Origin: Xestospongia bergquistia
Lineage: Eukaryota > Porifera > Demospongiae > Haplosclerida > Petrosiidae
Length of the DNA: 64,000 nucleotides
Reading direction: 5' to 3'
Assembly: GCA_963965975.1 (NCBI GenBank)
Contig: OZ014411.1
Coordinates: 19,310,446-19,374,445 of the forward strand
Within the stretch, counting starts at the first letter, position 1. Every line of letters starts with the position of its first letter. This document shows, one piece after another, positions 1 through 36,287 of the stretch. The translations under genes and the position numbers were made by a program. The notes beneath the pieces are model-generated. The model saw nothing but the letters and a program-made list of their open reading frames with translations, ran no database searches and was not told the DNA's origin.

Positions 1-91
1 CATAACAACTCGAAAAAATACAGGCAAGGAAAACCAGCAAATACGTCTTAATGATAGGAGTCATTTTAGCTCCACGATAAGAATTGGTCAT
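1..91 (-). CDS. PKHD1L1-like: CAP-fibrocystin-L receptor, third tandem copy (C), first codons only
   Basis: The first 91 bases, read on the minus strand, encode the signal peptide of a third array member. The start is ATG at 91-89 or, more likely, the inner ATG at 64-62, which begins MTPIIKTYLLVFLACIFSSC. Copies A and B have MAPIIKTYLL at the same place, so this copy differs by Ala to Thr at residue 2. The rest of the gene runs off the left edge of the window. The sequence upstream of it (92-706) matches that upstream of copy A more closely than that upstream of copy B. Confidence 0.8.
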   Translation of the reverse strand, partial: MTNSYRGAKMTPIIKTYLLVFLACIFSSCY

Positions 92-10100: not shown

Positions 10101-12621
10101 ACTGAATAATCTAATGGAATCATACTATACTAACTGCTGATATTATGAAACAGTACACTATAGAATGATGATACTTAATTTTAAAGGCATTGATCATGTT
10201 AGTGAGATTACTTCAGTAACAATGGAAAGATAAAATTTGACCATACAGGATGTAAGGAAATACTATTGGTGAGGAACAGTGACAACTAAACTTAGCCAAA
10301 TTTTTAAGTACAACTATGGTTATCATAAACATTGTATCTAACAAATGATGTAGCATGTTGACATCATGAGATGAGTTGGAGTGTTTGAGGGAGGAACAAC
10401 ACCTTGTAAAAATCTGGTGAATTTCCTTTTTTTTGGGTGTAGCACTAGGAGTAACAAAGTGTATTGTTTAATGCTTAATAAGACAATTTTGTTGACTTGT
10501 ATAATAAACTATATATAAGTTTTTGAATTTAGTATGGTTTTTCTTTTATTGATCATTGTCAATGCATGTAGTAACTATCTATCAATACTAGTATAAGAAT
10601 AACATTATTGACATATAGAACACATTTGTTAGAAAACAAGTTATTTGAAGTAGTAATGAAGATTGATTTGTCTAATTTCAGTTCTTGTCCTCCCACAGGG
10701 AGGATATTATTTCATTATAAATTGTAATAAAATACTGTTGTTAAGGACTTAAATGAGCCAAATTAAATATTTAAGTTCAAAGTTGTCATGTCAGTGACAT
10801 GAAGTAGGATCATGTGATGGTTCATAACACAGGTAAGTGTTGGAGTATTGAAGTATGAAAATATGCTGTGTGTTAATGACATACCTATCTAAGGTGTTCA
10901 TTAACAGTAAGTGGATGCTCCTTTATATGACCAAGTGTCCTACAACTATTTGAATGTGCTAGTTGTTTACATGTATCTAAAGCTTTCTGAATGCAATAAA
11001 AATTGGAGATCTATACTTCAAGAGTGTACAAGAATATTTAAGGTGCTTTGAAGAAGATACTTTGAATGAATTATATTCTGTTTTATTTTCTCACAATTAT
11101 TGTCATAAAGAAAGTAATAATAATTCCACAAAGTTACGAATTTTGTAATGGACATAACATATCCAACTCAATTTTTATAATGTACATCATGTGACATCAT
11201 GATATATATTGTAAACATATTTGTAATGTATATCATCACACACACATACATACACAGACACACAAGAATACTACAAATGACATTCAAAACAAAAACAAAT
11301 CTTAAATGGCAGGTAGAAAACATAAATTGTCTACTGTCATGATCTACATACTTCATTGTTATTGTCTTTACTCTATTGATATGGTCTACCTACTCTATTG
11401 TTATGTGCAGTGTCATATTATCATTATTGTTAACTCACCACACAATCCATTAATACATTTAGGTGCATCAGTAGGACACTGACTGCAAGACTCTCCAGAG
11501 ATAGGCACAACATTAGTAACAGCTCTAAGAAATAGAGAACAGTAAATTTGTTATTTATATTATGTTATATAGTTTACATAGTAACTATTGTAATTGTATT
11601 AAGTTAAAGAAACAGATCATACTTACCCTGGTGCATAGAAACATATTACTACAACTCCAGTACCAATGGCATGACATCTTTGTTCAGGAGAGAAGTATGC
11701 AGCACCACAACCAATAAGATATGTGTTAGGAAACAAGATCTACAAAGAAAAATTATTTTATATGATGTGTGAGTTCTATATTTAATTGACAAGTAAAAGT
11801 CTACACAAAAGGCAGTGCATTTTATTACATACAATTCATTATGTCAAATGTATGTCTCTTTTAATTACATAAAATCAGTGGAATTTCTTGAATAAGAAAA
11901 ATTACTATAACTACATGTGGTGACACTATATTGGTAAGATTTTCATTAATCACTGATAATTATATTATATGCTTTTACTACCAGCTAGTTATTATCAGTA
12001 ATATGTACCTTTCTTTTATAAATTACTATCATCAAGTCAGCGTTATTAGTGTCATTTAAATCAATACTATAATTGTTTGAAATTGCTTATGTGCCAATGT
12101 TTGCTAATGTAGGTATTTCAACAATACACTTTATTTAATATAGTGATACTCACTTGATCTTGATTGATCTCCTTGTACTGACAGTCTGCAGTCCAAGTTA
12201 ACCAACAACTTAGTACTTGATTTAATACAGACTGGTTGACTTGAACAGCTGAGGAAATTAATTGACGATTCTCACCAACCCAACTAAACTTAGAATCAAC
12301 AGCTGCTGAAAGGATATCTTTAGAAGCAGGTTCATTGTTACAACTACGAGCTGTAGCTTCTGCTATTTTAGCAAGAGATTGGCTCCACTCCTTTGGAACA
12401 AGAGTAAATTGTAAATTGAAGCAGTGATGTATTGAACTCACCATTCGTCTCATGTTAGCAGCCTTTTGTTCATATCTAGCACTGTTATGCTGATCAAGAA
12501 GATACTGTTTTTGATCTCTTGTTAACTCGCCATAACAACTCGAAAAAATACAGGCAAGGAAAACCAGCAAATACGTCTTGATGATAGGAGCCATTTTAGC
12601 TCCATGATAAGAATTGTTCAT
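1106..12621 (-). CDS. PKHD1L1-like: CAP-fibrocystin-L receptor copy A, internally deleted
   Basis: Predicted exons (minus strand): 12594/12621-12442, 12390-12154, 11739-11627, 11524-11439, 9039-8974, 8897-8829, 8203-8068, 7860-7749, 7691-7634, 7458-7299, 7027-6957, 6903-6863, 6511-6441, 6387-6277, 5653-5567, 5518-5144, 4152-1106. The order is signal peptide, CAP domain, three IPT domains, first part of PA14, then directly the final ectodomain, membrane helix and tail. Relative to copy B, 11,343 bp are missing, removing the end of PA14, about ten IPTs and both G8/beta-helix blocks. The PA14 exon ends in phase 1, and an AG at 4,154-4,153 would splice to GAT-GTT in frame. Against function, exon 6903-6863 has 41 nt where copy B has 40, which shifts the frame. 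The final exon remains open for over 1,000 codons. It could be a shortened receptor with an assembly error or a young pseudogene. Confidence 0.75.
4154..4157. other. Joint of the 11.3-kb deletion in copy A
   Basis: Sequence to the left of this point matches copy B up to 16,677, and sequence to the right matches copy B from 28,017 onward. The four bases TGAC occur at both ends in copy B and once here, so the deletion used a 4-bp microhomology. Right beside it (4,159-4,196) is an alternating purine-pyrimidine run of CA, CG and TA steps. Confidence 0.9.
5700..5880. repeat. Intronic minisatellite in copy A
   Basis: Three to four imperfect tandem units of about 45-50 bp, each containing GTAA-TATAATATACCAGTATA-like sequence, lie in the intron upstream of the PA14 exon. 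The matching intron of copy B (about 29,595-29,690) holds only about two units, so the array differs in length between the copies. Confidence 0.7.
8490..8790. repeat. Dispersed repeat, copy A intron, member 1
   Basis: This stretch starts near GAGCTATAAAGGTTATATAATTA and ends after a TCCAAAATGATTTTGAGACTGC-like block. It matches 9,390-9,740 in the same orientation and has paralogues at 32,205-32,480 and 33,060-33,390 in copy B. A weaker relative is at 59,330-59,560. No coding capacity or convincing terminal inverted repeats were seen, so the class is unknown. A non-autonomous transposon is possible. Confidence 0.55.
9390..9740. repeat. Dispersed repeat, copy A intron, member 2
   Basis: Second member of the family also seen at 8,490-8,790. 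It has the same block order: a GAGCTACAAAGATTATATAATTA start, then a GTCTATAGAAGACT segment, a TCACACCCATTGTT segment and a TCTAAAATGATTATAGGACTGC segment. It sits in the large intron between the CAP and IPT parts of copy A. Confidence 0.55.
9741..11438. other. Remainder of the large CAP/IPT intron of copy A
   Basis: The intron between exons 11524-11439 and 9039-8974 is about 2.4 kb, far longer than most others in the gene. Apart from the repeat at 9,390-9,740, I found no convincing exon, RNA gene or long open frame. CA-rich steps lie at 11,238-11,265. The sequence is conserved with the copy B intron (32,736-35,073). Confidence 0.5.
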
Positions 12622-13243: not shown

Positions 13244-13622
13244 TAAAGTCTGTTTTTTATTGTCTTTATAATTAGTGTTTTATTATTGTTTTGTGAACAG
13301 TATTACTTCGGAAAGTAAACAGTTCTTATTAGTACATACTTTAGTGAAGATTGAACTTTCAATTGAAGCTTATAATTATATGACATAAAAATTGTTTTAA
13401 AATTGCTTGCATAATAGTGACATATACAAGTCCAGGAATTGTGTTAATAAAAATTATTTCCAAATTATCATGACTTAAAAATAATCATTGCAGCAAAACA
13501 TGACAGTTTATATAAAACTAACTACAAAATCAATCACAAACTACTACTATTAATAAAATAATTATAATAACAAATACAACATTTATTTATTTTAGTCTTT
13601 AGGCAGCAAATAAAATTAATGA
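13244..13622. other. 3' flank of receptor copy B
   Basis: AT-rich 3' flank, paralogous to 707-1,105. A minus-strand AATAAA at 13,587-13,582 lies about 36 bases past the stop codon and is the likely polyadenylation signal. Confidence 0.5.
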
Positions 13623-16600
13623 TTACAGGTTAGTGATCTTGTCATACTCAACATCATCCTGAGTCATCTGATTAAATGCAGGCACTGGATTTCCAACCTT
13701 AACTTCTTTACTAACTAAGTATTCAACTTGGTTTTTCTCAGCATTGACAGGATCCTTAAAACTTGAATAGTCATCCTCATTCTTTGCCATTACATATCCT
13801 TTGTTCTCATCATCAGGCACAAGGTGAAAAATTGGATAATCTCCATCTTCATCAAATATGGGAGAGTTACGATATATAGTACGCATAGCATGTGCTTCAT
13901 ATAAGTTCTCTGATCCTGTCTTATTAAATGCATACTTTCCTCTTGTCCTCCTCTTTCTAATACATTGACAACATACGACAGTGATTGTTAGACATATAAC
14001 TAGTAACAGTGCTCCACCTACTGCACTACAAGCTATGATTAAAATAAAATACTTCTCAAAGATACTAGTCTTAGTGGGTGGTTCTGTAGGCACTACAATA
14101 GGGTAACTTGGATCTTGTTGAGCTGAACCGAGGATAAGATTGTTTCCACGAAATGAAAAAAAAAGGACGTTGGAGTTTGATATGTTTTGTATGTCATTTG
14201 CAAACATGGACAGTGTATTTGCACTGTTACTGGTGACAAAGAAAGTAACAATGATACTACCTTCATATAATGATACATTGTATACCAATACATTGGGATA
14301 CCTCTCTTGGATGCGTGCTATTAAAGTTGTCTTGAATTCATCTTCATAGTTTCTAACAGTGTCATTGTAACTGTTATTGTATGTTACAATGAAACGAGTG
14401 AATGGAAACTCCTCAACTACAAAGGTATTGCTGTCTATAGGTTGAGGTAGTTGATTGCTAGAAGAGGCAGGATTTGTAGAAACAGAAAATTGAATTTTGT
14501 ATGAGCCTGCACGTTTGACATGGATGTCTTCAAACTGAGCCACTCCTTGTTCAATATTTACAGTAATATCCTGCCCATACCTCTGTCCAGTGGAAATTAA
14601 GATAATAGCAGCAGTCATAAACCATTGTCGTCCCCTCCATCCTAAGTTAGTAGGAACAGTATTAGTATTGCTATCCAAAATGTGAGCAGTTACAGTAGAT
14701 GAGAAGGGAAATGTTGTATTGGTAACTGATGGTGGCTGAGATATGACTTGAAGGTAGAACTGTCTTATTTGAATGTTGATAACACTACTACTACTGGTAA
14801 GAGAGAAGTTAGCAGTAAGAGGGTATGTGATGTCAAATTGTAGACGATATGTTCCAGGATGACTAAAGAGGAGATCAGAGAACTGTGCTATACCATTTCC
14901 CATATTGACTGTAGAATTCATTAGAAAAGCACCAGTGGGCTTTGATATCAATGATACTGTTAACTGCCAAGGTTGTCCTACACCTAATGTAGACACTACA
15001 AGGCCAGCCCCATCATACATTGCTACTTTAATGGGAGAAGTTAATAGAATACCTTCAACACCAACTGAAGGAAGATGGACGATACCAAGTCTTGTTGGAA
15101 TACTTAATATAACTGGATTAGTATCATTCCTTTCTTCTTCTTCCTTTTGAAGTTGTTGATCATAAAATGTTGTCAAATTAGTTGTACTATTATCTCCAGG
15201 CTGAGGTCCACCAGTTACATTTGTGGCTCTAACTCCTTGTGTTGGATCAGTTCGTATTGGCTGTGGCTCAATGACAACAGCATCAAAAATATCATAACCT
15301 ATATCTTTTGATAGTTCTCCAGTTTGAATGACTTCACCAACACGAGTTGTGATATTAAGAAGCTCCTTGTAGACTGTATCATCCTGTGGATTTGATCCAG
15401 TTTGATTGTTATAACTTCCATCTGTTCCATTGACATTTGGTGTTGTAGTGTCATTAGAAGGTGCTGCACCTATTTCAAATTCAACTCTGGTACGCGCTGT
15501 TTCTCGTTTGCGGCCTCCACTTTCAGAAATTACATTGACAATTCTGATACGATTTGGTGTTATGCCAAGGAGCAGGGCTAAGTTTTGAATTAGGTTGACT
15601 TCAAAAAACTCATCCACAGTAACAGGAGGAAGATCAATACCAAGTTGAATGACTTGAGTAGTTTCAATTCTAACTGGTGTGTCACCTTTGATCACAATAT
15701 GTAATCTTTTAGTGTTGCGATCATAATAGTTTGTTCCATGGCTATCAGAGAGTGTTGGAATGAAATTATCACCACGTTTATATCGAAGGTTGCCGTCCTT
15801 CATATAGCCATTAGTTGGAATGATATACTCAGTACCAACATATACATCCAGTCTCTGTGGGTTAGTATATATTATAGCTACAACAAGACCTTGAGAGTCA
15901 TCGGCATTGAGAAGATAAAGGTTTGTCTTTTGAGGATTGGTACTAGTCATACCAATAGTGTAGTTTAGACCAGTTGATACTATAGCATAGAAAGTTGATA
16001 TACGTTCTTGACATGTGTATCCACCACACCATCCATGATCTTGAGGACCATTTATCAAATCTATGTACCCATTAGCACCGACGCCAATAGGAGAGAGCCG
16101 ACGAATTTCTGTATCAGCATCAAGACTTTCTATGACAAACATCATGTGATCTATATTGGTACAGTGGTAAGAGTTCCATTCTGGTTCCCACTGACAATCA
16201 CCAGCACTGCCTCTGTAGATGCCCTTATATGGATAGAGTAGATCGGGATCAATTTTACTACCGGTTTGAGTAGCTAACATTGTTCTTGGAATTCGATAGT
16301 CACCCAAACCACGTCTACGATCACCATCCCATTCAAATTCTGACTTTGAAATGAGGGAATTCAAACCTGTAGAGCCTGTGAAAGAGCCATCGAGATCTCG
16401 AATGAGAATTTTCTTTAATGCATCACAATCCATATCAACACAGTCTGAAGGATTGACACTTCCAAGTATCGGGTTGTGATTGAAGAATTTAGAAGTTTTG
16501 TTCACTGACAGAAATGAGATTCCTTTTGTCCAAACAGGATGTTGACAGTCTTCAGATTTAGGATGTGTCATCAATGCTACTTCTTTCATGGAAGAGCAGT

Positions 16601-19600
16601 GAGTACCAAAGTTACAGAAGCTAACATTACTGAGTTTAGTGAGGCCTTTGATTGCAGGATAATTTGGAACATCTGACCATGGGAACTTCGGAAAGTGACC
16701 AGGACCTGATGTAAATGAAGACAGAATTATACCCACATGTCCTTTCCAAGGACTTTGGATGCCTGAATGTGATCTGGCATGATAAGCAATGGTTGGTTTA
16801 AAACTGTACTCTGTGCAATTAATAGCACCAGAATTAATACTGGAAATAATCTCTGAGTCTTTTATAACAACAGTTTTAGTACTGACTCGATGAGATAGAG
16901 AAGCAGGTCCAATTACAGCAGTGAATATGGCAGCATAATTGTTAACAAATGTAGATTCTGTAACTAGAACACCAGCTTTAGAGTATGAGAAAAGGCCATA
17001 GTGATAACAGCTATATATTGTGAAGCCATGGAAAGATGAACACCCACTTTCGTCACCAACAAAGTGACCATCATTGTAACCCACATGAATACCATGTAAT
17101 GTGGTATGTGCTATGTTGTTTTTCCAGGTAGGACTGAAGTTAGATGATATACAGTTCTCTCCATTAGTATGATAACCAGCCTTAGCTCCACCGGCAGCTG
17201 AATTTCCAATCAAAACATAGTTGCTGGCTTTAGCAAGTTCATAGTTGGCTGTCCACTCAGCATTCCAAGGTTCATTACGACCATTATATGTTCCAGGAAA
17301 TAAAGCTACCACTGCTAGATTTTGAATCAACTGATGGTCACTGCCTGTAATATATAGAGAGGGTCCTACAGTACGATGGACTACGTTATCAGTGATTGAC
17401 ATTCCTTTAGTCCCAAATACACCAATTCCTGTATTGTAGCCTTTATGAAAACTACAGCTTTTGACATATGAACTGTTGTCCTTAACTTGACCAATATTGA
17501 GAAATGCCAGTGAGTATCTAGGATCAAAACTTTCCACAAAGCCTTCTTGACCACAACCTTTAAATTCAACTCCTTCTAGTTGAGCTGATCCAGTATATTG
17601 TATTGTACCAGAGATGTCAACAAAATAAGTACCAACAAGAACACGACAACCATATGATTGCTGATCTGAAACATCAACAGCAGCATTAGGATGTGTTCCT
17701 AGAATTTTGATGTTTCGAGAGAGAAGTCCAACTTCAGCACTGATATTGACTGAGCAGGATTTTGTGTTGTGAACTCCTCCAAGATGATTATAAGTTAAAG
17801 GACTATTAAGACTAAGAGTTAGTCCATCATTACTGATACTAGTAATAGTACGTTCTTCTGTTTGTCCTGCTTCATAGAAAGTGGATGCAATAACAATTTC
17901 TTCTCCTACTTGCCAGTCTACAGCTTGGCTTAATACAACTTGAGTGTCTCCTTCCTTTGCTGTTTGAGCCAGAAAGGTCCAAGCGGGAGAGCGATCTTTA
18001 CCATGTAAGCTTAGTTGACCAAACACTCCGATACCTTTAGCACCCAATACTGGTCCAAGATTGGGGAGACGATATTCTGGTGAATTCAAGTCACCATTAA
18101 GTATAATTGTTAATTGATGTTGAAATGGCATGTCTTCAGACCCAGCAATAAGTCGTCCATTGTCAATTAAAATCAAGTTTGCCTCTAAAATGTGGTCACG
18201 CTCATCTAGAAATTCTAGTCCTCCACAGATAGATAAAGTTTTAATACGAGGCAAAGGAACATCAACCAGAATATATAAACTACAGTTAATGTACACATCT
18301 GTATCATTTTGTGGTAACAGTTGATTAGGCCATATAGATTGGTCAGACCAGAGATAGGTGACATTAGGACGACCTGGAGGTAGAGGGCTTGGTGGTTCAG
18401 GTGGAGGAGGTGGAATACAGTTCTCGTAGAAACATCGATAAGAAGTAAAAGATACTGGAACATCAATGGGACAGGTTGGGTTACTACCATTTACATAATA
18501 TGTGACAGATGTCTCATTGTTATTGACATACCAATCTCCTAACTGTGATGACCCACCAGGTGGTATGACCAAACTGGCATTCTTTTCTTCTTTATTGATG
18601 TTTATATAGTCCACACTCTTTTTAAAATCATGTCGTATCCAAAGATAATCAGATGTTGTAATACCAGAATAAAGAGAGGAATAAGATATGTTATTAAACC
18701 TTTCTCCTTCATCCCAATCGAGTTGATATATTTCTTTGATGGGTAATAGAGCCATATAGCCAGGTCCAAGTAGAAGTCGTTTGAACACATATTCCAACTG
18801 AAGAATACCATGTTGACTGGTGACATTAAGATTTCTTGTTGTGAGAGATGATGGAGTAGGGTCAGTGAGAGCGAAACGAGCAAAGTGGACTTTATCATCA
18901 CAAACACTTCCTCTGACAGCTCCAAAACTTGAAGCAGAGTGATCACTACAATGAGGAGAAGGTAAAATAGTAGAAGTAGGTAAAAGAGCTCCTCCAACAT
19001 TGCCAGTTAATGTACCGTCCATATCTCTGAAGACTTGTTCATGTTCCCATTTCCAAGTTGCAATATTAGGACTGTTATCAAACACTAGTTTCTCAAACCT
19101 TGTTTCAAATCCTCCTTGTTTTGCTCTACAATGTGAACAAGCTTGTAGTGTGTAACAATTGTTTTCATCAAAGTTAACAAACGTAACATTGGACACAGTC
19201 AGATAGTATGAATGAGGAGTTTTAATACCAGCACCAGTACAAACTTCATTGTTAACATTATCTATATTTCTTAAAGCAGAATGAGCTACAATGAGGACAT
19301 TTTCAATGAGTGAGCCATTCTTACCCCAAGCTGCTGTAACCTTAGTGTACTCTACACCAGCAACTGTGTTATCTAACATTACACTGTCTTTTAGTTGAAC
19401 AGCACCCACTTCTGAGAATTCAACACCTCGTACATTACGCCAAGCCAAAAATTTCTTAAATACTGCAGGAGTGACTTCATCACAAGTACTAGCCTTTTCA
19501 GGATGGTAGCTAGGAAAGATCCATATACCATACCAGCCAAAGGAGTGAGCTGAGTTATTAGTAAACTGGCCAAGTGGAAGATGAAGGGGCTTTATAGCTG

Positions 19601-22600
19601 TAGTGAAGGATGGACCTGTTGGATTTTCAAGGAGACGATACCAAAACCCAAAATGTGTACCTCCAGCTGCTGCATTATGTCTCAAAGTATTGTTTGGATT
19701 AACTACCCAAAATGTTGCAGGTGTGATGTCCACATTGAGTAGACTACTGGATGCTCTAACAAATATACCCAAATTGTATTGAATAACATTGCCTTGTTCA
19801 ATGCCATCCTCCAAGAAATATGCATGGCCTAAGATGTTATATGCCACATTTTTTTCAACTAGTAGGTAGTCAACACCATGAATAGTAACAGCTCTGTTAA
19901 ATGTATGGTGAATACCACAACCTCTAACATAGGAGTCACTGACATCACCATTAAGATGGAAATGAATTGGATAACGACCAAGTCGGAATGCCTGTCCAGC
20001 ATGAGTAACTTCAATGTATTCAATTCTACCAATGACTTTGTCCCTTGGTCCTCTGTGTAACATAATCTGAGATCCAAACTGATCATCGATAGTCTCTGCT
20101 CCAAATCGTCCATTGAAGCAAGTCTGTACTGCAAACTGACCCGGATCAAAATCAGTAGGACAATTTTCAAAGAACTCATTCCATTCAGAATTTTTGTTAC
20201 CACGGACAACTACATTTCTAGTGAGGTAGCCTACTTCAGCACGTGTTTCAATGACTCGACCATGTATCACTTGTGTCACTGCTATATGTGTATATTGTAA
20301 TGGTGGATCAACTGTTATGCTCATTTTATCAGCACCAATGCTTACAATAGTCAGTTCTTCATTCTCACGCTGACTATAACTAGTAGAAGCAATAACTACT
20401 TTACCGCCAACTTCCCAGTCACACACTGTATTTTTAAGATACAGGGTTGTATTTCCTGCATATGCTGTAGTAGATAACCATGTCCATGTGTTAGCGATGG
20501 GTTTACCATGTAAGTCTAACGTTCCATTTCTAACAGCTAGGGTCTTAGCACCAAAGAGAGGAAGCTCTGTTGACAGGACATGACCGTACATGACAATCTG
20601 AGCTTTGTGTTGATATGGTTGGTCTTCAGTACCCACTTGTAACTTGCCACCATCTGTGATCAAGATGTGTTCACTGTGAAGTTGTACACCATCTTTTTCA
20701 TCATCAAATACGAGTTCACCTCCTTGAATTAAAAGTATTTTGAGAACTGGAGTATAGATATCCAAGACCAATGTCTGTCCTGCTGGTACTATGACAAAAT
20801 CTCCTTCTTTTGGTAAGCCTAATCCACCCCATGTGTACTCTGAACTCCACAGATCAACATAATAAAATTCAATATTATTGGAAATAGCATAACCTTTTCC
20901 CTCAACATAAACCATTACAGGAGCTTTAATGGTTCTACCACTAGCTCCAGTTTGACATACAATAGTAGATTGAGTCTTGTCAAGCACAAAGCAATCGACA
21001 CCAGCTATGGTGACAGTGACATCATTACTAAAGCCACTTCCTACAAGTTCAATGATAGAACCTCCAGCTGTCCCACCACGGGTACGATTAATGGATATAA
21101 TGTTAGGTGTGAGGTCTATAAGGAGAGTATAAGCTTGTGGTAGAGATACAGTTGATGACAAGCTAGTAACAGTAACATCACAAACCTGTGATGTTAGAGT
21201 TGGACTATTTTCAAGTAGATGTGAGAATGATGGTATAATACATTGTATTGATGTAAGAGATGGTCGAGTGAAACTAGGTAAACATGTCTGATTACATACT
21301 GTAATAAATGTTGATACAGGATTGAAGCCAACACCAAGAATAGTCAATATGTTTTGGCCAGCAAAACTACCATTAATAGGAGAGACACTATCAACTTGTA
21401 AAGTGTAGATGAAGGTAAGCTGACCATCAGCCTTTCCTTTATCAAAGATAACAACTTCAACTTGATAACTTCCAACATAATTAGGTCCAAGTGTGCATAT
21501 TATAATTGTCTCATTGGTAAAGGAGACATTACATTTTGAGTTACCAAAGCTTACAGAAACTAATGATGTATCACAGGTGAAACCGTGTCCTGTAATAATA
21601 ACTACATCTCCTTGCTGACCAGACATTGGTTCAATACCCATTATTTGAGGAGTAATATCTTTGCTGTACTCTAAAATAAGAATACCATCTCCATTTCCAT
21701 TAGCATCTCGTTTTCTCATCTGTCGTGATGAAGTTGCAGGGGTTACAGCAATAGCTACAGTGTAATTGCCTTCTTTACCAAGATCTGGAGTAAAGCAACT
21801 TACACTTGTATATCTACTCTCAACAATTTGACAAAAGCTATTGCCAATAGATACAGAGTTGTGACTGAGATTGTCACTGAAACCAATACCAGATATTGTT
21901 AGTTTTGTACCACCTCGTATGCTACCTAAAAGTGGAGAGATACCATCAATTCTGAGTAGACTAGTAATTGAGTTGTCTGTTTCTTCACTAAACTGTGCAA
22001 AACCATAAGTTGGAACTAAAACTGATACTAAGTATTTGCCAGCTTGAATAGGAGATAATTCACAAGTTATGTTTTCAAAGTCTGTTAAAGTGACGTTGAC
22101 ACATTCAAATGGCCCCACCATTACAGTAGAGTCAGAGTCCAATAATTCGCCACTAATTGTGATTGTTTGCATGTCGACTCCACCCACAATGATTGGATCC
22201 ATAGCAAAAATCGTCGGTGTAGCATTTGATGAATATTGATAGTCACAACCATCACTGCTATCACAGATCACTTCCCATTCTGGGCCATAGCTAACATTAA
22301 CAGGTACAATGGAGTATGGCATATTGATGTTCACTGATCTTGGAACAATACATTGAATTTGATAGTAAGAGACTTGTTTGATGGTACACCTTTGAGTTCC
22401 TACATATACAGTAAGGTTGGTTTCTACAAATGAAGCTCCTGTAATGGTGATGATGTTACCACCTAACACTGATCCAGTTAAAGGTGAAACATTTGTAATT
22501 ACTGGTATAATGACTATTGCTCTATGAACCATAGCTTCACTATTAAGGAGAGCAAAGCCATAGTTACATATGTGGAGTGATAAAGGAAGAATGTCAAATG

Positions 22601-25600
22601 GAGTAGGTTGAGATGTCATATTTAGACGACAAGTTATTAAGCTATCACTATACACAAGTGATTTACAAGAGTAGTCACCAAATTTGATAATAGCATTATT
22701 TGGATCAAGACCAAAGTAATATCCTGAGAGAGATATGTTGGAATAAAGTGTAGATATATGGTCATTAATCCATTTGACTACAGGAGTGTTACAGTCACTA
22801 TAAACAAAGATAGGACTTGATTTAGGCTCAAGCAAATTGGTTAAGTTTTGACAAGAGAGGCATTCCGTTTGACCACTACCAGGTGTTAAGTCACTGTCAT
22901 TATGGTAATCTAAGTGATACAATGCTTCAAAGTCATCCACCTTTACTATAACAGCTGTTGCTACATCCTCTAATTCTCTCACTGTAATGCTACCAGACAT
23001 TAGACATGACTGGCACACATCATCTACATATGAAGCAAAATAGTATACACCAGGCTGTGTGAATATGTATGAAAAAGTCCCTTCAACACTAGCTGTGCTT
23101 TGGAAGCCACCAGTAAGATAGTATGAAGTAGTAGGACTGGCAGTTTGATGTACTTCAAATTGACGAGGTATAACGAAACCTGCACCTGTCCAATTCCACT
23201 GAAAAATACAATAATTATAAAATGAAAACAACTATAATTACATGTCTTGTATGTATTTAACATCATGGTGGTAGTAACAATATAATTGGTATGCTTGCAA
23301 TTATAAGGTACATGTACTCAGCTTGTCATAAAAGCCCTAACTTGCATTGAACTAATGTTAATGAATACTCCAATGTTAGAACAGACTATCAGAGTATTTG
23401 TACTAATTGACCTTGATTTTTTAGGTTTTTTTAAGGACAGGGTTTTAGGATGATTCATTCAACTTTCAAACTAATTACCTATCAACTACGACATTCCACA
23501 TTTGAGGAAGGCAGAAATAAGGAAATACTACACTTTGGTTAGTGAATGATTGTGTTTTGAAATTTTCCACAACAGAAATGCTGCTGGCATAAGCACCTCT
23601 ATTGTGATTTTATTTAATTTAATGAGAGTTCATTCCATTGTATCAAACCAACAGAAGTCCATTTTGAGGCTATGACATCTGCTCTCTTTCCTGTACATGT
23701 CAATATTTTAATTTATAATAAAAACTTACAGTGACTGTGTCTCCTGATAAAATCTCAATATTAGCAGGATTCCAAGCAAAATAACGTCCAAGAACTATTG
23801 TTGAGAACATAATATGACATACACAATTAATATATATGTACTAATGTAAAAGACACATACCTGCATGTTGTCCACTATTGTCAATAAGGTGTTCCTTTCT
23901 TGTTGATGAGGTAACACATTCAATATTCTCATAAGTTACTGTGTTAACATTACACTTAGTTCCTAGTCCAGTGGTGACAGTCACATTAGATCGAAAACCA
24001 GTTCCTTTTATCGAAACTTTAGTTCCTCCAAGTAAAGAGCCACTACACGGTGTCAACTTTGTTACTATGAGTTGATACGTAAATACTGGAAGCATAAATG
24101 GAGAGGTTGTATTGAACATCTTAATAGAAGAATAGTCAAGTATTTCCATTAGTGAGATTGATTGTTCATCAATTTCATCAGTTTGTGACTCTTTGAATGC
24201 TATTCCAAATATAGTACTACGAACAGACACATCGAATAGTCCAGGATTATGAGGTGAAGTTGTACAGTTTATTTCTGTGGCAGTGAATGATGTTATAACA
24301 CACGAAGCTTGTCCAATAGTAATGACAATATCTGACATATCTGTTAAGTTGAAGTTGTTTCCAATAATGGTAAGTTCTGTTCCTCCATAGACTGGTCCAG
24401 CTGATGGACTAATTGATGTAATTGTAGCTGAGTAGTTTTCTGTGTATTCATAGCCAGAATCAACTATAGCTGTCACACCATTTACAACAACTGTAACATT
24501 GACTACATCTGAATCATGTGGTTGTGGTGTACAAGTCAATACTGTTAAGTTTGATGATATGATAATACAAGGAAAGTCATCAAAAACAACATAAAAGTCA
24601 TGTGAGAAGTAAAATGGTAAGTTAGGGGGTTTAGTGATATTGGGCAATGTTGGGAACCCCACTCCAGTAATGGTAACCAAATTTCCACCACTAATACTTC
24701 CTTTGTCAGGTTGAATGGAATTAACAACTAAAGAATATTGGAAAATGGAGGAATGTGGAGTTGATGATATTGAATAGCCAACACCATCAACATGTACACT
24801 GACATTTTGTGGTCCAGCAACATTAGGAGTTGGTACACATGATATTACAGTATCATTGAGAGATGTAATATCACAGGAACTATCACCAATAGTAACTGAT
24901 ACATTATTGATATCATCAGTAAAGCCAGTACCATAGATAGTGATTGGAGTGCTATCTTGACCACCAATAGAAGGAGAGATTGACATGATCTTCGAAGTAA
25001 CTTCAGGTGAAAATTTAAAACTACACCTTCGACTCCTACAAGAAGCTGGAATACCATTAATCAAGACTTCAACCTGTGAATTGAGAAATAGAACATACAT
25101 CTTTGCTAAAAACACTTATGTTTACATTCTACTGACAATTATTTCATGCTACTATCATTCAGTGTTATATATCATTTTCAATATTGAAAAACATGTAGTA
25201 TTTGTTATGATAATAAGATGTTGAATGTAATATTATGTACCTGTGGTTCTTGTTCAGGTAGCCGTAACATATCTCCTCGGAATGGTCTTAGCCACACCCC
25301 TCCATTAACAATGGAGGCTACAGAAATGTTTACCTTATGTCCTGACAGACCACTCCCATTAGCTTTCATCAGTGGGAGATCACCCCCTCTATTTGTCCAC
25401 TTAATACTCCATATATAACCACTACACTCTCCGCTACGAGTTACTTCAAAACCACCTTCATTTGGAAGGTATGTATCTAGTAATGTTTTAACTTCCGAGG
25501 CTAAGGCATTTGCTGGTATATTGTATACTGTTTGGTTTTCAAATGTAAGTCGAAATGCTCCAGTGACTGGTGGAGTACCAGAATAGAGTCTTGATACTAG

Positions 25601-28041
25601 TACATTGTTTGGTGAAGATGACAACAAAGGCATATTGTAACCACAGTGGTGAACTTTGAACTCTACAACATAACGTGAGACTATTAGGTTACATGACAAT
25701 GGATCTTCAGTATCATAACAGATCAAGTCAATTGTGGGAGAAGTATTTGATACACTGACTGTATCAACAAAGATACCATTAGGTCGGACAGCACGTTCCA
25801 ATTGTGTCACTATTGAAAATAAGAAACACAACAAATGAAATAAGATGCTTCTAATAATGTATACATAAAATTTAACTAGTTTATGATCTTTGATACTTTC
25901 AAAATAGATAGAAATTAATAACTAAGTCAAGTCATTAGTATTTCTCTAATTATTTATTAAGAAGAGTATACAATACACAATATCTAGAATTACCTGTAGG
26001 TAATGAAGTAGTGAACATGACTTCATCCACCCAAAAATCAGTTGAACTACTATAAAAGTAAGTACGGAGTACTTGATATGTATTGGACTGCTGATTATAA
26101 TGTTCATTAAGATAGTTATAGACATCAACACATAGGAACCTCCATTTATTTGTACCACTGTTATCAGTAACTGGAATATTATATACATAAGTTTTTGTTT
26201 GTTTATTAATACGTCCATATATACGTAGTCTAGAATTAGGTAGTATACCATAGACAGCAAAACATACCTATAATAAATATATAATATATTTAATCAAAAT
26301 AATTATGATACTTACATATTTGTACCCAATACTTGAAACTGTCATTGGATCTACTCTCTGGCCACTCCTCTCATCTAGTGTCCGATCATATCGCCACACA
26401 ATTCTGGGATTTTTCAAACTATATCGACCACAATATGGTTCATGGCTATTATCAAGAGTACCATAAAGAGTAGGTTGAACAATTACATCATAGCCATCTT
26501 TAAAATAGACATCACCAGCTCCTGTGATATAACAATTGGTTGTGAACAGTGTTAAGAGTTCTGATGTTACATTGTTAGCAGATTCATGTATTGGTATAGA
26601 GTTTGTGTGTCTTGAACTCAAAGATAAATTGAAATGGGAGGGTTGAGTAAAGTTTTGTAGTATAAAAGAGGTGTGGTTACTCTGATTGATAACTTTGAAG
26701 TCAACTAAGTCTTTTTGATCTGATATGAAGATAATTGATAGTTCCAACACATTGTCTATGTCAGTAGTAACATTTATGTAAACTATTACTCTACCAAAAC
26801 TCTTTACTGTTGGAAGATTATTTAATGCAGATGTTACAACAGAGGCATTGTCACTGTCTGTTAACTCATGAGTTATACTGTTCAAGTAAGAGAGATGATA
26901 AGTGAAGTTATCTTCTGAGTCCAAAGTGATCACTTGTATCTTGGGTTTGGCAGTGATATTGATTTCCTATTAGAAATAATAATATAAACTGTATGTACAT
27001 ATAGTTTACTCTAAACTTGCTGTGATGTATTGGACAGCAGTAGATCTGAGGGTTACCTATTACAAAGCTTATTCACTGTATTTGGAATACAGATTGGCCT
27101 ATAATATGTTTGTGGCATGCAAATACATCATTATATCTGAATAAATATATTTATGCTGTAGATAAATATATGTTACTATGATGTATGCTCTCAAAATAAC
27201 TGTATAAGGCATATCTAGACATTTTTATAATATGTATATACATTATACACAATACATATATAGACACATACATTATACATAATATATATAAATATAAACA
27301 GATCATCATGATACATATACATATACATTATACATAATATGTATAACTATATAATAATACACCTGTATTTCATTGACAACAACTGATTGTATTGTCACTT
27401 GTTGTTCTTCATGATCAGCATCAGCTCTATTATTAGTCCAATTGAGACTATGTATCTTAGCACCAATTCCAATACTCCATGGTCCCCAACCTTGTTGCTG
27501 AACTGCTTCAATGTAATAGGCTTTACCTGTAGTTAAAATGATTATAATTGTAAATACAAACCACATACTGTGCTGTGTCCAACTATCGTGATTAGGTATA
27601 ATAAGTTTGTATTTCATTATGACCGAAGCATACTGATGTCTTACTACTATTATCAACACTCAATCTGAAATGTAGTCTTATTAATATAATATGTAATATA
27701 CACATTAATACTAGGAATATGTGGATATGGATGGTTTGCCTTGCACAGTGCAAATACAGTTTTGATTTCTAGTCTGTCCAGAAAACTAGACAACTAGTAA
27801 TCTTGTGTAGCATTCATAGCATAATTTCTGTATACCTAACTTCTAACTTAGTTTTGATTTTATTCACTTTCACACTGCTCTATATGTCTTATACAGATCT
27901 TTTAATTGTTTTAATTATGTCTGCCTTTTCCTTTGTTCATGCTTATTGCATCACTAAACACCAAGTAAACATTTTTACTCTGTACCCCAGAAAAACAACT
28001 GTTGCCTTCCTTAGTGTGACTGAACCACACACATGCGCGCA

Positions 28042-28073
<32 letters not shown>

Positions 28074-31000
28074 CTGTTCAGGGTAGTTGTCTCATGCTAA
28101 GGTGCTCAATAATAATATGAAATTTATACATACACTTTACCATGATATACTTTAATTAACCAATCAGATTGCTCCATTTCAGGCCAACAAATAACTATTG
28201 GAGTGGTCTATAAGTTCTTATACACTCTTTTCTGAGGCTATGATCTGTAAAGTTATAGTAATTAATTTGACAGAAATTACTGCCTTATATTTCTTTTTTT
28301 CTGTAAGTAAGTACATTTACTATAACATTGCAAATATTTAAGTTAGTAATAAATGCAACTCAAGACTGTTCGTATACAGAAGACAACAGTCCTGAAAGTG
28401 TGAAACAAAAAGAGATTGGGATTTAAAGAATGAATTTGATGAATACTTAGCAGACTGCTTGGAAATTGTAGTGATAGTCTTATGAGGTCTTCCTCTAAGC
28501 TGGCCTAAGAAGACTATTCCACAACTATTGCTACCAATCCAAGTTGGAATCTCTAGTTTATTGGTACAGTGCTCAAATAAACATCAAAGTAAGCGGTGGA
28601 GCTAACGAAGATGTAGTACTCAAGAAGAAAGTCCAGTATTATACACAATATATAGAAAAGAAAGTCCATTTTTTCCATTGCAAATAAAATGGTAAGCTAT
28701 TCTTCTTAAAATAAAGCTAACAAGCAGATCTTGATGTACACATATCCAAAGCAGCAGATGCAGTGCATCTAATGTAGCAACTGAAATGAATCAATCTGAT
28801 TGGTCAACATGGTACAAATAATTTTACAGTTTAGTCTTGTTAGCTATGTGTTTATACACCTCTGGCCTCCAGTCATTGGTGTATAAATCATGTATCAACT
28901 TTGACCTCAGTGTATAACCTGTACATATACTATGTACATACATGTATAATATGGAGTTGTTATAACGATACATTAGCTAATAATATTCAATTATATTTTA
29001 ACATCTGTAATGTACATACCTGCTTGTAGTGGAATAGGTCTAGAGAATTGGGTATCAAAAAAATCCCATCTTCCTCTAGTATAACTAGCATATGCAATTA
29101 ATTCTTTATGTTCTCTTGAAGTGTTGGGACTAAGATATAGACGTAATCTATCATCAGATATAAAGTTGAAGGTATACAAACTGTCTATGGGTGGTACAAA
29201 AAATCCAGAGTAACGTTGTTGAAATCTATATATTTCTCCAAACTCTGCAGGATAATTGCTGTCACGATAAGCTCTCTCTTGAACTGTCCAGTTAAAACTA
29301 GTGTTAGGATAACCATAGGGACGTTCTTCAACTCTGTCTAAGTTTGACGAATAATCTTTTGTCCATACTTCACGTACTATGCCACGCCCACCTGAAATGT
29401 TAAAGTAATTGATAATAAACCTAAACATTTCAGACATACCTGGATATACAGAACTAATGGGAGGAGCTGGTCTTGTTATACATTGTATAGTAGTAGCTGT
29501 GTAGTTGACTATATCACAAGGTACTCCTAAATAAATCAAAATATATCACATTGGTAAATTTGTAATAGAGCAAGTCATACTATAAACAAAGCAATATATA
29601 AATGTATGTCATAGGTAACAAATAAACCAGTATATAAAAAATGTATGCCATAGGTAACATAATATACTAGTATATTATATTATATATCATATATAATTTG
29701 TTATTGATTAATTACTCTTTAACATGTACACGAGACCAAAGTGGAAATTACTTTGCTGTTTATAACCAATATGAAGCCAGGAGCTGGGCATTCATTGTTT
29801 TGGCTTCTTCTGGTCACTAAGCAACAAAGTAACTGATGACAAGGTCTCTAATTAGCTTAGAAATTAGTTTAAAACATGTCTCTGATACATTCCAGATCTC
29901 AAGAAGAAAGCACAAACTTTGAAACTACAGTAAACTTGAGCATATAGTTACATGTACATGTACTGGGTAATGTCAAAAACATTATGATCATGACTTGTTG
30001 AAGGATTATATTAAAGTATATAGAATTATAAGGAATTTATTAAGAATTATACATCATATTAATATTATACCTGAAATAAATGCTTTAACATCTCCAAGTG
30101 GATCATTAAAGTGTATTCCATATATGGTAATAAGTGTACCTCCATTAGGACTACCTACATTAGGTTCTACTCGTGTGATATCTACCATATAAATAATAAA
30201 GTAATATCAATGAACATAATATAACACATAATACCTGAGTGTGTTTGAAAGATATATTGTCGTAGTTTGTTATCTACTGATAAGTTCTCTGTTGGAATGT
30301 ATGAGCTAAGGAACAATAAAGTGAATTTAAGTGTACATGTATAATATATTCATTATACACTACATAATATACATGTACATGGAATGTGTCCCATATACTG
30401 TATAGTGCCCCACCTAAAATCCAACCCAACACACAGGCTGGCATTAAACAGTCAAATATTATAGCTTGAATTATTAAGGTGTAATCAATACTCTTATAAA
30501 TAACTAATAGTGTGGACAGTACTATATAGTAACAATATCAATACTTACTTTCCATATAAGGAGAGTACTAAAGTAGCATTCATTGAATCTATAACATATT
30601 AAAAATAATATATAATATAATATAATATAATGGTATATTATGTTACCTATTCTGGTGGTTTCTGGTTGGCAACTGATATAACCTAGACCCCAACTTGTAG
30701 TAAGTACACCACCATATCTAACAATGAAATAAAGTAGATCATCTTATAAATAAAATATTGTGATTACTGTCTGAATTGAAAATATTAGTTCTAGTCTTAT
30801 ACTAGTTAAATGTGTTATTTAACTTCTGTAGTAAGAATGATTCTCAATGTATTTTGTATTAGTCTGTCTATTTAATTAAATCTAAGCTCATTAACTACCA
30901 CTTCAGTAACAAAAGGTGTATACAATCATAACATGATATTGTAGAATTTTAGAAACTGGTGAGGTGAAAATTATGTCACTAGAAGTACATATAAACATAA

Positions 31001-34000
31001 AATTATTAACATACGGTGTTTCTGTATCATTATTCCAAGGATTACATTGTTGTCCACCAATTAATAGTCTATCTACAGTTTGAGAGATAGTGAAATCTTC
31101 ATTAGCCTCTTGTGTATCAGATACAAGATAAGAGAAGATGCGTCCACTTATTGTTATATTCATTGGATCAATACCTACAATGGAATAAGCCACGAATGAA
31201 ATAATCTACATAAAAATTGTGAAATGTTAAATAACAGTAATACAGAGAGGCCTATAAAACATAAAATGATAAACAAAAAGACAATCATTAAAATACAGGA
31301 GCTTACAATGTTAAAATATAATATACAACATCTAATGACACATACTAACCAGGTATTTTAGCATGAGGTGAGACATCAGTCACTGTAGGAGTTGTCCAGT
31401 CACGATACTAACAGAGAAACCAGTAATTCAATAAACTATATAATGTGTTTTAATTAGAACTTTACTCGGAATATACAGTTGCAAATTCTTCCATTTAAAT
31501 CTTTGACAATGTCTTTGCCATCCACTAGAACTTGAAGTTTGTAGTCTTCATTCTTCTTCTCTGGAGATGAGCTAAAGAAGACAACAACAAGGCAATAATT
31601 TTTTGACAAAAATTTACCACAAGTTATTGAGAGCAGTATCAAAATAAGATAAACTATTACTTTTTCTTAATATATACTTGTTAATAACTATTAGTTATAT
31701 ACGCTATATTATGGACACTTTAACAATATAAATAAAGGACAATATAAGACTGACTGATTGCAGGAGTCAACTTACCCAGTTCTACAAACTATTTTTGTTG
31801 TTGATGTGTAGTATGTCACCACTTGACATGGAATAGAATATTGGTCATTATACAGTATAACTTTATTTCCTAAATTAGGATCATCTCTGTTGAACTGGTC
31901 TTTAGAGAAACCTTAACAACAACAAACAGAACAAATGTATTCAATAACTAAATTTAAATGAAAACATCCAAAACTCATGTCATATTCACAATAACATAGA
32001 ATGTACCAGACTTCTAATGGTATTATTAGACTTAAAATAATTTTGTTGAAGTTTAACAACATTTCTAACAGATGAATTTTTAAATTTAGGTACTCAAAAT
32101 TCACATTGGATCGCTAACCACCTTGTGAAACAAGATGATAAATTCAAACAAATTAATCTAATTTTTTTTAGAAGCTAACGACTTTACAGTGAAACATTGA
32201 CTAGAGCTATAAAGGTTATACAATTAGCAGTAATGTCTATAGAAAAAATTAAAAAAAAAAATTAGGCAGAGAAGTAAGCTAGGGAGAAGCTTCGAGCATG
32301 ATCAATCACATCCATCATTATTATTGGCATATGAAGGATATGTTTTAATTTCAATTGTCACCTTGAACAATGAAAACTAATATACCCATATATGTAAGGT
32401 GTTGTCCAAAACGATTTTGAGACTGCCTAGCATGCTGTATGTGCCAGACACTCAATGAGGTCAGTTGCAAGACACCATTGTTTAGTGAGCCACTACATAT
32501 CACTCTTGACTCATTTACTAACCTCTTCCATGAAGTGTTAACAATGTACCACCAGCATAGCTTCCATATCCTGGAGTTATCCACCACACATCTGAAAATA
32601 ATATAATCTTTATGAATTGTTATGATTTCAACTAACAATACCACATTAGTATGTATAATAACTTACAGGGTATTGTACTATCATCTGTATTGTCAGAAGG
32701 ATCAGCAGGTATGCCATTATCAGAATTCTCAGAGGCTATGTATGAAATATAATGTAAAATGTAAAACTTCAAATGAAGTCTGTAAAACAATCATCAAATA
32801 AGGTGCTCACTTAAACAACTTGTTCAATGGAATCTTATTGACTATGTCATTACATAATCAAACATCAATATCACATATATCATCACTTGATGTACATAAT
32901 ACAACATTTATAACTGAATGAACTACATTGTACTGTTGTTTGTTATTGAGCACATAGTAAAAAATAGTGAATGTACATTTGATATAATTAACAACAGTAT
33001 AGATATGACTATATACATATTTGCTGTTTATTAAGTAGAGATAATAATTTAAAAAATCATCCTAGAGCTACAAAGATTATATAATTAGCAGCAATGTCAG
33101 TAGAAGGCTATTATCTATAGAATGCTAAAAATATAGAAGAAGAAGCTAGTGAGAACATTTTCAGTCACACCCATTGTTGTATTGCTTGCAGTTAGGGTTA
33201 ATGAACTTCAGTGGTTGCTATATGTGTTAGCATTTAAAGGATGTAGTTTTCCTTCATTCATTACTCTTGAAAATCACATACAACAATATATTAAAATTGC
33301 AAAAATGGATATATACACAAATACATAACAAGTGGTCTGAAATGTTTATAGGACTGCTTGGCACACTGTATGTGCTAGAAAGAAATTTTATCAAAACATA
33401 TATCATACTATTATTATCCTGTGTATACCATAGAGTGCTACATGTATTAAATTACATAAACTATCTTAAAAATTAATGATAGTTAAATTATGTTTACATC
33501 AGGAGATAACTTGGCTAACTACCTAATTGGAATGTTGTGTTTGGGTTACTATCTAAATAGTTAAAAAGAGTTATTAACCAATGTCTGTAGGTAGTTTGAA
33601 CCTATTTTGAAACTGGTTACAAATCTAACAAAAATAAAAAGTGGTTTGAATGTTATAGAGGTACATAATATAGATATAATGTGTACAATAGGTAGTATTA
33701 TTATTAAGACAACACAGTTGTCCAACAATCATACTGAAGAATCTAATGAAATCATACTATACTAATTGCTGATATTATGAAACAGTACACTACAGAATGA
33801 AGATACTTAATTTTAAAGGCATTGATCATGTTAGTGATAGTAATTGGATTACTTCAGTATCAATGGGAAGATATAATTTGATAGTATAGGATGTAAGGAA
33901 ATACTATTGGTAAGGAACAGTGACATTTAACTTAGCCAAATTTTTAAGTACAAATATGGTTATCATAAACATTGTATCTAACAAATGATGTAGCATGTTG

Positions 34001-36287
34001 ACATCATGAGATGAGTTGGAGTGTTTGAGGGAGGAACAACACCTTGTAAAAATCTGGTGAATTTCCTGTTTTTTGGGTGTAGCACTAGAAGTAACAAAGT
34101 GTATTGCCTAATGCTTAATAAGACAATTTTGTTGACTTGTAAAATAAACTATAAGTTTTGAACTTAGTCATATATTTTATGGTTAACGTTTCTTTTATTG
34201 ATCATTGTCAATGCATGCAGTAACTATCTATCAATACTATTATACAAATTATGAGAATAACATTGTTGATATATGGAACATAATTGTTAGAAAACAAGTT
34301 ATTTGAAGTAGTAATGAAGACTGATTTGTCTAATTTCAGTTCTTGTCTTCCCACAGGGAGGATATTATTTCATTATACATTGTAATAAAATACTGTTGTA
34401 AAGGACTTATATGAGCCAAATTAAATATTTAAGTTCAATGTTGTCATGTCAGTGACATAAAGTAGGATCATGTGACAGTTCATATCACAGGTATGTGTTG
34501 GAGTATTGAAGTATGAAAATATGCTGTGTGTTAATGACATACCTACCTAAGGTGTTAACAATAAGTGGGTATTCCTTTATATGACTAAGTGTCCTATGAC
34601 TGTTTGAATGTGCTAGTTGTTTACATGTATCTAGAACATTCTTAATGCAATAAAATTGGGGATCTATATTTGAAGAGTTTACAAGAATATTTAAGGTGTT
34701 TTGAAGGAGATATTTTGAGTGAATTATATTCTGTTTTATTTTCTTACAATTTTTTTGTCACAGTGTGTGCCAAAAAATATACTATTTCTTCTATGTTTTA
34801 TTTTGGTCATAGTAATGAACATAACATATCCAACTCAATGTTTATAATGTACATCATGTGACATCATGATATACATTATAAACATATTTGTAATGTATAT
34901 CATCACACCCACACACAAGAATACTACAAACAAATCTTAAATGGCAGGTAGAAAACATAAATTGTATACTGTCATGATCTACATACTTCATTGTTATTGT
35001 CTTTACTTTATTGATATGGTCTACCTACTCTATTGTTACGTACAGTGTCATAACATCATTATTGTTAACTCACCACACAATCCATTAATACATTTGGGTG
35101 CATCAGCAGGACACTGACTGCAAGACTCTCCAGAGATAGGCACAACACTAGTAACAGTTCTAAGAAATAGAGAACAGTAAATTTGTTATTTATATTATGC
35201 TATATAGTTTACATAGTAACTATTGTAATTGGATTAAGTTAAATAAACGGATCATAATTACCCTGGTGCATAGAAACATATTACTACAACTCCAGTATCA
35301 ATGGCATGACATCTTTGTTCAGGAGAGAAGAATGCAGCACCACAACCAATAAGATATGTGTTAGGAAACAAGATCTACAAAGAAAAAATATTTTATATGA
35401 TGTGTGAGTTCTATATTTAATTGACAAGTACAAGTCTACACAAAAGGCAGTGCATTTTATTACATACAATTCACTATGTCTAATGTATGTCTCTTTTAAT
35501 TACCTAAAATCAGTGGAATTTCTTGAATAAGAAAAATTACTATAACTACATGTGGTGACAGCATGGTTGGTTAGATTTTCATTAATCACTGATAATTATA
35601 TTATACGCTTTTACTACCAGCTAGTTATTATCAATAATATGTACCTCTTATAAATTACTATCATCAAGTCAGTGTTATTAGTGTTGTATGCTCTATTAGT
35701 GTCATTTAAATCAACATCTATAATATTATAATTGTTTGAAATTACTTATGTACCATTGTTTGCTAGTATAGGTATGTCAACAATACACTTTATGATATTA
35801 TTTAATGTAGTGATACTCACTTGATCTCGATTGATCTCCTTGTACTGACAGTCTGCAGTCCCAGTTAACCAACAACTAAGTACTTGATTCAATACAGACT
35901 GGTTGACTTGAACAGCTGAGGAAAGTAACTGACGATTCTCACCAACCCAACTAAACTTAGAATCAACAGCTGCTGAAAGGATATCTTTAGAAGCAGGTTC
36001 ATTGTTACAACTACGAGCTGTAGCTTCTGCTATTTCAGCAAGAGGTTGGCTCCACTCCTTTGAACAAGAATAAATTGTAAATTGAAGCAGTGATGTATTG
36101 AACTCACCATTCGTCTCATATTAGCAGCCTTTTGTTCATATCTAGCATTGTTATGCTGATCAAGAAGATACTGTTTTTGATCTCTTGTTAACTCGCCATA
36201 ACAACTCGAAAAAATACAGGCAAGGAAAACCAGCAAATACGTCTTAATGATAGGAGCCATTTTAGCTCCACGATAAGAATTGTTCAT
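13623..36287 (-). CDS. PKHD1L1-like: CAP-fibrocystin-L receptor copy B, full length
   Basis: Giant single-pass surface protein of the PKHD1L1/fibrocystin-L family. Exons: 36260/36287-36108, 36057-35821, 35374-35262, 35159-35074, 32735-32667, 32591-32523, 31911-31776, 31571-31466, 31407-31350, 31174-31015, 30717-30647, 30588-30549, 30305-30235, 30181-30071, 29526-29440, 29391-29020, 27526-27363, 26966-26316, 26267-25994, 25809-25241, 25073-23861, 23794-23730, 23198-13623. All phases match (4,816 aa). Order: signal peptide (TYLLVFLACIFSS), CAP domain (LLDQHNNAR; GCGAA), IPT repeats (about 13 in all), PA14, cupredoxin-like segment, G8 (about 20,860-20,490), beta-helix with IHFHLNGD, second G8 (18,360-17,970), second beta-helix, membrane helix (about 14,060-13,975), and a tail ending VEYDKITNL. 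Human PKHD1L1 is about 4,240 aa and, as far as I know, lacks the CAP domain. The ligand is unknown. Confidence 0.9.
23199..23729. other. Intron of copy B without further content
   Basis: A 531-bp intron before the giant last exon. I see no repeat, RNA gene or open frame in it. Confidence 0.5.
27527..29019. other. Long intron within PA14 of copy B
   Basis: A 1.5-kb intron splitting the PA14 domain. It contains the right-hand breakpoint of the copy A deletion (28,017-28,020) and an alternating CA/CG/TA tract at 28,025-28,074. From 28,021 to its end it aligns with the copy A intron at 4,158-5,143. No coding content was recognised. Confidence 0.6.
28025..28074. repeat. Alternating purine-pyrimidine tract at the deletion breakpoint
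   Basis: CA steps, then CG-rich steps, then about fifteen TA steps in a row. Such runs are prone to Z-DNA or cruciform formation and to slippage. The copy A counterpart (4,162-4,196) has a shorter TA part and a longer CG part. Confidence 0.8.
32205..32480. repeat. Dispersed repeat, copy B intron, member 1
   Basis: Paralogous counterpart of the copy A repeat at 8,490-8,790, so it predates duplication of the receptor gene. Confidence 0.5.
32736..35073. other. Large CAP/IPT intron of copy B
   Basis: About 2.34 kb between the last CAP-module exon and the linker exon. It contains the dispersed repeat at 33,060-33,390. I see no exon, RNA gene or long open frame in the remainder. Its phase-1 boundaries make the CAP module a removable cassette. 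Confidence 0.5.
33060..33390. repeat. Dispersed repeat, copy B intron, member 2
   Basis: Counterpart of 9,390-9,740, with the same block order (TATAATTAGCAGCAATGTC near the start, GACTGCTTGGCA near the end). Confidence 0.5.

Follow-up and report, generated by a model that had tools for sequence, protein, structure and literature searches.

How does a sponge come to have a CAP domain, typical of small secreted proteins, at the front of a giant fibrocystin-L-type receptor, and are the two really parts of one gene? This question is raised by a 64,000-nucleotide (nt) stretch of Xestospongia bergquistia DNA (contig OZ014411.1, here contig C1:19310446-19374445), hereafter the window. A sequence-only reading of the window had proposed that exons for a signal peptide, a CAP core and its Cys-rich end are spliced, through a short linker exon, to the first IPT exon of a receptor resembling PKHD1L1 (fibrocystin-L, FPC-L). 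We rebuilt the gene model, compared its copies across the genome (146 Mb in 21 contigs) and weighed the alternatives. Nine Wnt matches at three loci mark this genome as an animal one, Wnt not being known outside animals. Our analysis favors a CAP module gained at a phase-1 intron of a fibrocystin-L gene, which was then copied and is read as one fused transcript, with a probability that we put at about 0.88.

Gene model and domains of copy B

The most informative locus in the window is a gene on the minus strand, copy B (36287-13623). We observed that its model comprises 18 exons and 14,352 nt, or 4783 codons with a terminal stop only. GT/AG introns were imposed in building it, and their presence in 17 of 17 cases is therefore by construction. 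It reads, in order, signal peptide, CAP, Cys-rich hinge, linker, IPT repeats, PA14, two G8/beta-helix units, membrane helix and tail. The rebuilt model bore out the proposed phases: exon 4 exits in phase 1, the linker exon runs from phase 1 to phase 1, and the first IPT exon (IPT1) enters in phase 1. A full set of 14,451 nt with no frame conflict had been claimed; the frame is indeed open, but the total is 99 nt (33 codons) lower through exon choice. The Cys-rich sequence quoted at that time, ESCSQCPTDAPKC, belongs to a neighboring copy, A; copy B has ESCSQCPADAPKC.

We next to this model set a Pfam scan of three pieces of copy B, with exons 14, 15 and 17 and most of exon 13 falling outside the pieces. 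CAP scored 38.2 bits (cut-off 21.1) and PA14 33.8 bits (cut-off 24). The scanned pieces held 13 TIG stretches, two in the first 700 residues, four in exon 16 and seven in exon 18, and exon 18 also held two G8 stretches (219 bits) and two CEMIP_beta-hel stretches (231 bits). Between the predicted membrane helix and the stop lies a Tyr-rich tail of ~114 residues. In a second, dispersed copy, D, CAP scored 35.7 bits.

The four joined CAP exons aligned to human GLIPR1 (3q2r) through the Cys-rich hinge (E-value 7.2e-10 for B and 5.3e-9 for D). Because the joined exons reproduce one known continuous domain with its hinge, their join is not expected by chance. The hinge pattern CxxCPxDAxxCxxGLC lined up with the GLIPR1 hinge, and in having a CAP domain above the family cut-off followed by a C-terminal Cys-rich hinge, aligned end to end, the sponge module resembles the GLIPR1/CRISP group. 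The CAP cavity tetrad is defined as His-Glu-Glu-His. In contrast to that group, the sponge positions read Pro, Glu, Val and Asn in the copy B alignment to GLIPR1, with three of four replaced and the Glu of the GEN motif kept. GLIPR1/CRISP members are small secreted proteins, whereas the sponge CAP sits within a giant membrane protein.

Conservation of the join among six copies

When the genome was searched with the stretch from CAP to IPT1, 30 candidates were scored and yielded 37 matches, so that more distant relatives may have escaped the search. The matches resolve to six gene copies. Five are in tandem (C4, C3, C0, A and B; contig C1:19.26-19.35 Mb), and copy D lies 2.8 Mb from the array at contig C1:16.52 Mb (16513099-16540285), with an extra CAP exon 1-2 pair upstream. 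There is also a stray CAP exon 3-4 pair at contig C3:7.323 Mb, the first exon of which has an in-frame stop.

Exons 1-6 are kept in all six copies with GT/AG sites and the same entry phases (0, 0, 0, 2, 1 and 1). The joins had been said to work in copies A and B; they do so, and in every other copy found. Copy B has a linker of 69 nt and each of the other five copies one of 66 nt, in frame throughout. At the other end of the gene, the last-exon frame runs for 3201-3276 codons without stops in C4, C3, C0, B and D, and the tails of C0 and C3 were located. Copy D matches B over most of its length.

Divergence between copies B and D

Synonymous divergence (dS) between B and D was calculated from exact exons for exons 1-6 and from local matches for the other exons, the helix and the tail; local matches misplace codons at exon edges when dS and nonsynonymous divergence (dN) are compared (exon 3 gave a dS of 0.18, versus 0.04 with exact exons). 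We observed high dS at both ends of the gene: 1.17 in exon 1, 1.49 in exon 4, 0.50 in the linker, 0.67 in exon 6 (IPT1) and ~1.5 across the membrane helix and tail. It was 0.15 and 0.04 in exons 2 and 3 and mostly 0.03-0.17 in exons 7-18 (0.32 in exon 17; exons 8 and 10 without data). Mid-gene stretches spanning exons and several introns aligned at 80-95%.

Across exons 1, 4 and 5 together, the proportion of nonsynonymous differences was below that of synonymous differences (pN 0.33 versus pS 0.56; P = 0.001, Fisher test; pN not below pS in 3 of 2000 bootstraps). The four hinge cysteines were invariant in all four aligned sequences (B, D, C3 and C0). Given the high dS at the join, the kept phases and the kept cysteines, the frame of the join and the hinge cysteines have survived heavy synonymous change.

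The two ends of B and D have diverged deeply but mid-gene, several introns included, is alike, a pattern that points to gene conversion or some other homogenizing exchange across the 2.8 Mb that separate the loci. It is most simply read as an old duplication whose middle was later homogenized.

A CAP-free paralog and the probable origin of the fusion

A further paralog, E, lies at contig C3:2.654-2.708 Mb. It has TIG and two G8 domains by profile, and IPT2, a PA14-like stretch and a membrane helix by eye. The donor CAAA/GTAAGT (slashes mark splice points) closes its signal-peptide exon in phase 1, and an acceptor of matching phase opens IPT1. The split codon falls eight residues before YGS both in E (K/ITWIWPRYGS) and in B (Y/VWWITPGYGS), an identical phase-1 codon position. 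Within the 62-kb region that holds E, the CAP exons found no match better than an E-value of 0.19 and the linker none better than 0.08; the credible matches in this region were the IPT exons. E thus shares with the CAP copies the signal peptide, IPT1, further IPT and two G8 domains, and differs in having no CAP, in joining the signal-peptide exon straight to IPT1 and in exons split into many more pieces. Several peptide-transporter-like frames of up to ~600 codons, identified by eye, lie between the exons of E (contig C3:2658300-2671000 and 2690500-2695400).

Mouse PKHD1L1, a coat protein of hair-cell stereocilia, is described as having a signal sequence, 13 IPT repeats, two G8 domains, PbH1 repeats, one membrane helix and an 8-residue tail (PMC6707252). 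So far as it goes, the description agrees with the earlier statement that vertebrate PKHD1L1 starts with IPT repeats and is not known to have a CAP domain. Set against this description, the sponge protein is alike in its signal peptide, IPT array, two G8 domains, beta-helix repeats, single membrane helix and length above 4,200 residues. It is unlike it in carrying CAP, hinge and linker between signal peptide and IPT in six of six copies, whereas E follows the PKHD1L1 order. The sponge CAP form is, moreover, a tandem multicopy family. PA14 is a feature of the PKHD1L1 family, and copy B shares it with a score above the cut-off.

Since E and mouse PKHD1L1, as far as the latter is described, both pass from signal peptide to IPT, these data suggest that a module was gained between the two in phase 1. 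A PKHD1L1-type gene would have received, by exon shuffling, a GLIPR1-like module of signal peptide, CAP, Cys-rich hinge and short acidic linker at the phase-1 intron that parted its signal peptide from its first IPT. Copying of the fusion would have followed, giving one copy 2.8 Mb away and five in the tandem array. A single transcript from a promoter ahead of the CAP exons would yield a type I membrane protein of ~4,780 residues; both splicing in vivo and the surface position are inferred from sequence.

A Pfam CAP search of the genome returned one ordinary CAP frame, on contig C9, and no donor CAP gene; this failure means little because the same search missed the split CAP exons. No paper bringing fibrocystin and CAP-type terms together was found in the open-licence literature searched.

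Alternative explanations

Whether the CAP exons and the receptor form one gene turns on intron 4, between hinge and linker, which measures 2338-2474 nt in the five tandem copies and 136 nt in D. Its length in the array, ~2.3 kb, would suit two adjacent genes, one for a secreted CAP protein and the other of fibrocystin-L type and started from a promoter of its own within the intron, a scenario that the sequence-only reading had itself raised. So would two other observations: of the 12 extensions read upstream of exons 5 and 6, three hold an in-frame ATG (before exon 5 in C3 and C4 and before exon 6 in D), and in five of six copies the CAP hinge is followed by a stop and then by a poly(A)-like hexamer. 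However, a separate promoter would be hard to maintain in the 136 nt of D, which disfavors this scenario. The 12 extensions, from six copies, reach a stop after 2-27 residues, the ATGs are not common to the copies and B has none, and by eye no leader shared across copies follows them; with no clear leader there, a receptor without the CAP exons would have no signal peptide. The phases of exon 4 and the linker are also unchanged in diverged copies. Upstream of exon 1, we observed TATAAA in B and C0 and TTTAAA in A (three copies viewed). Two separate genes are, on these grounds, very improbable. The stop and hexamer could instead mean that a single locus encodes both the complete fused receptor and, through a poly(A) site in intron 4, a secreted protein of CAP and hinge. 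Read-through into intron 4 stops within 8-10 residues, and AATAAA or ATTAAA follows 22-35 nt beyond in five of six copies, including D with its unrelated intron. Such hexamers occur here in ~12-14% of 60-nt windows, so that one after the hinge is weak evidence; 3 of 13 testable copy-B introns carry one, intron 4 among them, the four tandem cases share descent, and copy A has none. We consider a second, secreted product unlikely, though worth keeping in mind.

A different history would make the CAP head ancestral to fibrocystin-L and lost in gene E and in vertebrates. The CAP ends of B and D go back to an old duplication (dS 1.17 in exon 1 and 1.49 in exon 4), which is in keeping with an early origin, but two losses would be needed because E and mouse PKHD1L1 (PMC6707252) both lack CAP as far as seen. 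We judge this history decidedly unlikely. Exon shuffling of a CAP module, as first proposed, is the best reading of a CAP-free E whose homologous position is interrupted in the same phase, together with a mouse PKHD1L1 described without CAP.

Along with the read-through stop and hexamer in intron 4, several observations weigh against a CAP module gained and read as one fused transcript. The inference of gain rather than loss draws on E and the description of mouse PKHD1L1 only, and the signal peptide and membrane helix were called by eye. Constraint between B and D was not significant in exons 2 and 3 (P = 0.22), and the linker shows almost no codon constraint (dN 0.46, dS 0.50). B and D are so alike in exons 2-3 and mid-gene that these parts are not independent witnesses. 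The models of C0, C3 and C4 were read outside exons 7-15 and 17, and copy D was spliced to exon 6 only. Two of the five tandem copies are damaged. Copy A repeats the architecture only in its 5' part and its C-terminal part, as it lacks ~11 kb between sites matching B at 16.7 kb and 28.1 kb. Its deletion junction (~4150-4205) joins an intron to the interior of the last exon, where a weak splice site would preserve the frame; copy A may thus encode a shortened receptor or be a pseudogene. In copy C3, a single in-frame stop interrupts exon 16 (contig C1:19275901-19277400), and this copy may for this reason be a pseudogene or give a short product. The damage to C3 leaves the favored reading as it was, because that reading is based on B, D and E.

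Feature coordinates and neighboring sequence

Table 1. Features of the CAP-receptor copies in the window (positions in the window; contig positions in parentheses)
Feature	Position	Strand	Details and basis
Copy B exon 1: start codon, signal peptide, CAP start	36108..36287	-	donor GTGAGT; hydrophobic leader MAPIIKTYLLVFLACIFSSCYG, by eye
Copy B exon 2: CAP core with GEN motif	35821..36057	-	gene model, Pfam, GLIPR1 alignment
Copy B exon 3: CAP core with IGCGAAFFS, CFYAP	35262..35374	-	gene model, Pfam, GLIPR1 alignment
Copy B exon 4: Cys-rich hinge ESCSQCPADAPKCINGLC, exits phase 1	35074..35159	-	gene model, GLIPR1 alignment, copy comparison
Copy B exon 5: acidic linker, 69 nt, phase 1-1	32667..32735	-	gene model, copy comparison
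Copy B exon 6: first IPT exon YVWWITPGYGSYAGG, phase 1 entry	32523..32591	-	gene model, copy comparison
Copy B exons 7-11: remainder of IPT1, IPT2, PA14 start	29020..31911	-	gene model, Pfam
Copy B exons 12-17: PA14 end, spacer, four TIG stretches in exon 16	23730..27526	-	gene model, Pfam
Copy B exon 18: seven TIG stretches, two G8, two CEMIP-type beta-helices, membrane helix, tail, stop	13623..23198	-	gene model, Pfam
Copy B G8 domain 1	20475..20834 (contig C1:19330920-19331279)	-	genome profile search
Copy B G8 domain 2	17967..18332 (contig C1:19328412-19328777)	-	genome profile search
Copy B predicted membrane helix YFILIIACSAVGGALLLVICLTITVV, approximate	13974..14051	-	read from model; hydrophobicity by eye
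Copy A exons 1-4: signal peptide, CAP, hinge	11439..12621	-	copy comparison
Copy A linker exon and first IPT exon	8829..9039	-	copy comparison
Copy A remainder, lacking ~11 kb present in B, deletion junction at ~4150-4205	1106..8828	-	self-comparison of window
Copy C0 exon 1 start, runs off left edge	1..64	-	genome search, copy comparison

Immediately upstream of copy B, the window holds the final portion of a prenylcysteine lyase gene (36451-37407; Pfam 3e-66). Pieces of the 3' end of this gene recur upstream of copies A and C0 (~379-741 and 12949-13256), and the duplication unit therefore included that gene. Outside the fusion gene, the window also holds a near-identical direct repeat of ~2.5 kb (49083-51680 and 54600-57170, offset ~5494 bases).

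Elsewhere in the genome, among the best 150 of 199 candidates, TIG-bearing frames clustered at contig C9:2.48-2.88 Mb, many of them of 222 codons, and at contig C2:8.58-9.62 Mb. The two clusters suggest tandem families of small IPT proteins. TIG domains were also found within a single open frame of 13,759 codons (contig C13:5681395-5682243).

Possible function and significance

By analogy with PKHD1L1, the product would be a long surface rod of IPT, PA14 and G8/beta-helix units, with the CAP and hinge as a head at the far outer end and the Tyr-rich tail inside the cell. Loss of three of the four CAP cavity residues favors a role as a binding head over one with the full CAP cavity site, a tentative assignment to which we give somewhat less than even odds. 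The tail of copy B suggests a signaling role because its ~114 residues include several tyrosines, whereas the vertebrate tails measure 8-9 residues (9 in FPC-L; PMC13424714).

The copies might serve as lineage-specific surface recognition receptors, with an ectodomain homogenized by gene conversion and with an outer tip (CAP ends, hinge and linker) and cytoplasmic tail that diverge. This is a speculative proposal, and on balance we think it unlikely to hold. If it were true, related receptors could share a scaffold and yet differ in binding and signaling, as in self/non-self or microbe recognition.

The genome holds a before-and-after pair, a CAP-less fibrocystin-L gene and six CAP copies that meet it at the same phase-1 codon position. 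Comparison of E with the CAP copies makes a textbook exon-shuffling event testable. With this event, a domain known from secreted proteins would have reached the outer end of a protein family whose vertebrate members are associated with the stereocilia coat and, by way of PKHD1, with kidney disease; the sponge itself probably has neither the organ of hair cells nor a kidney.

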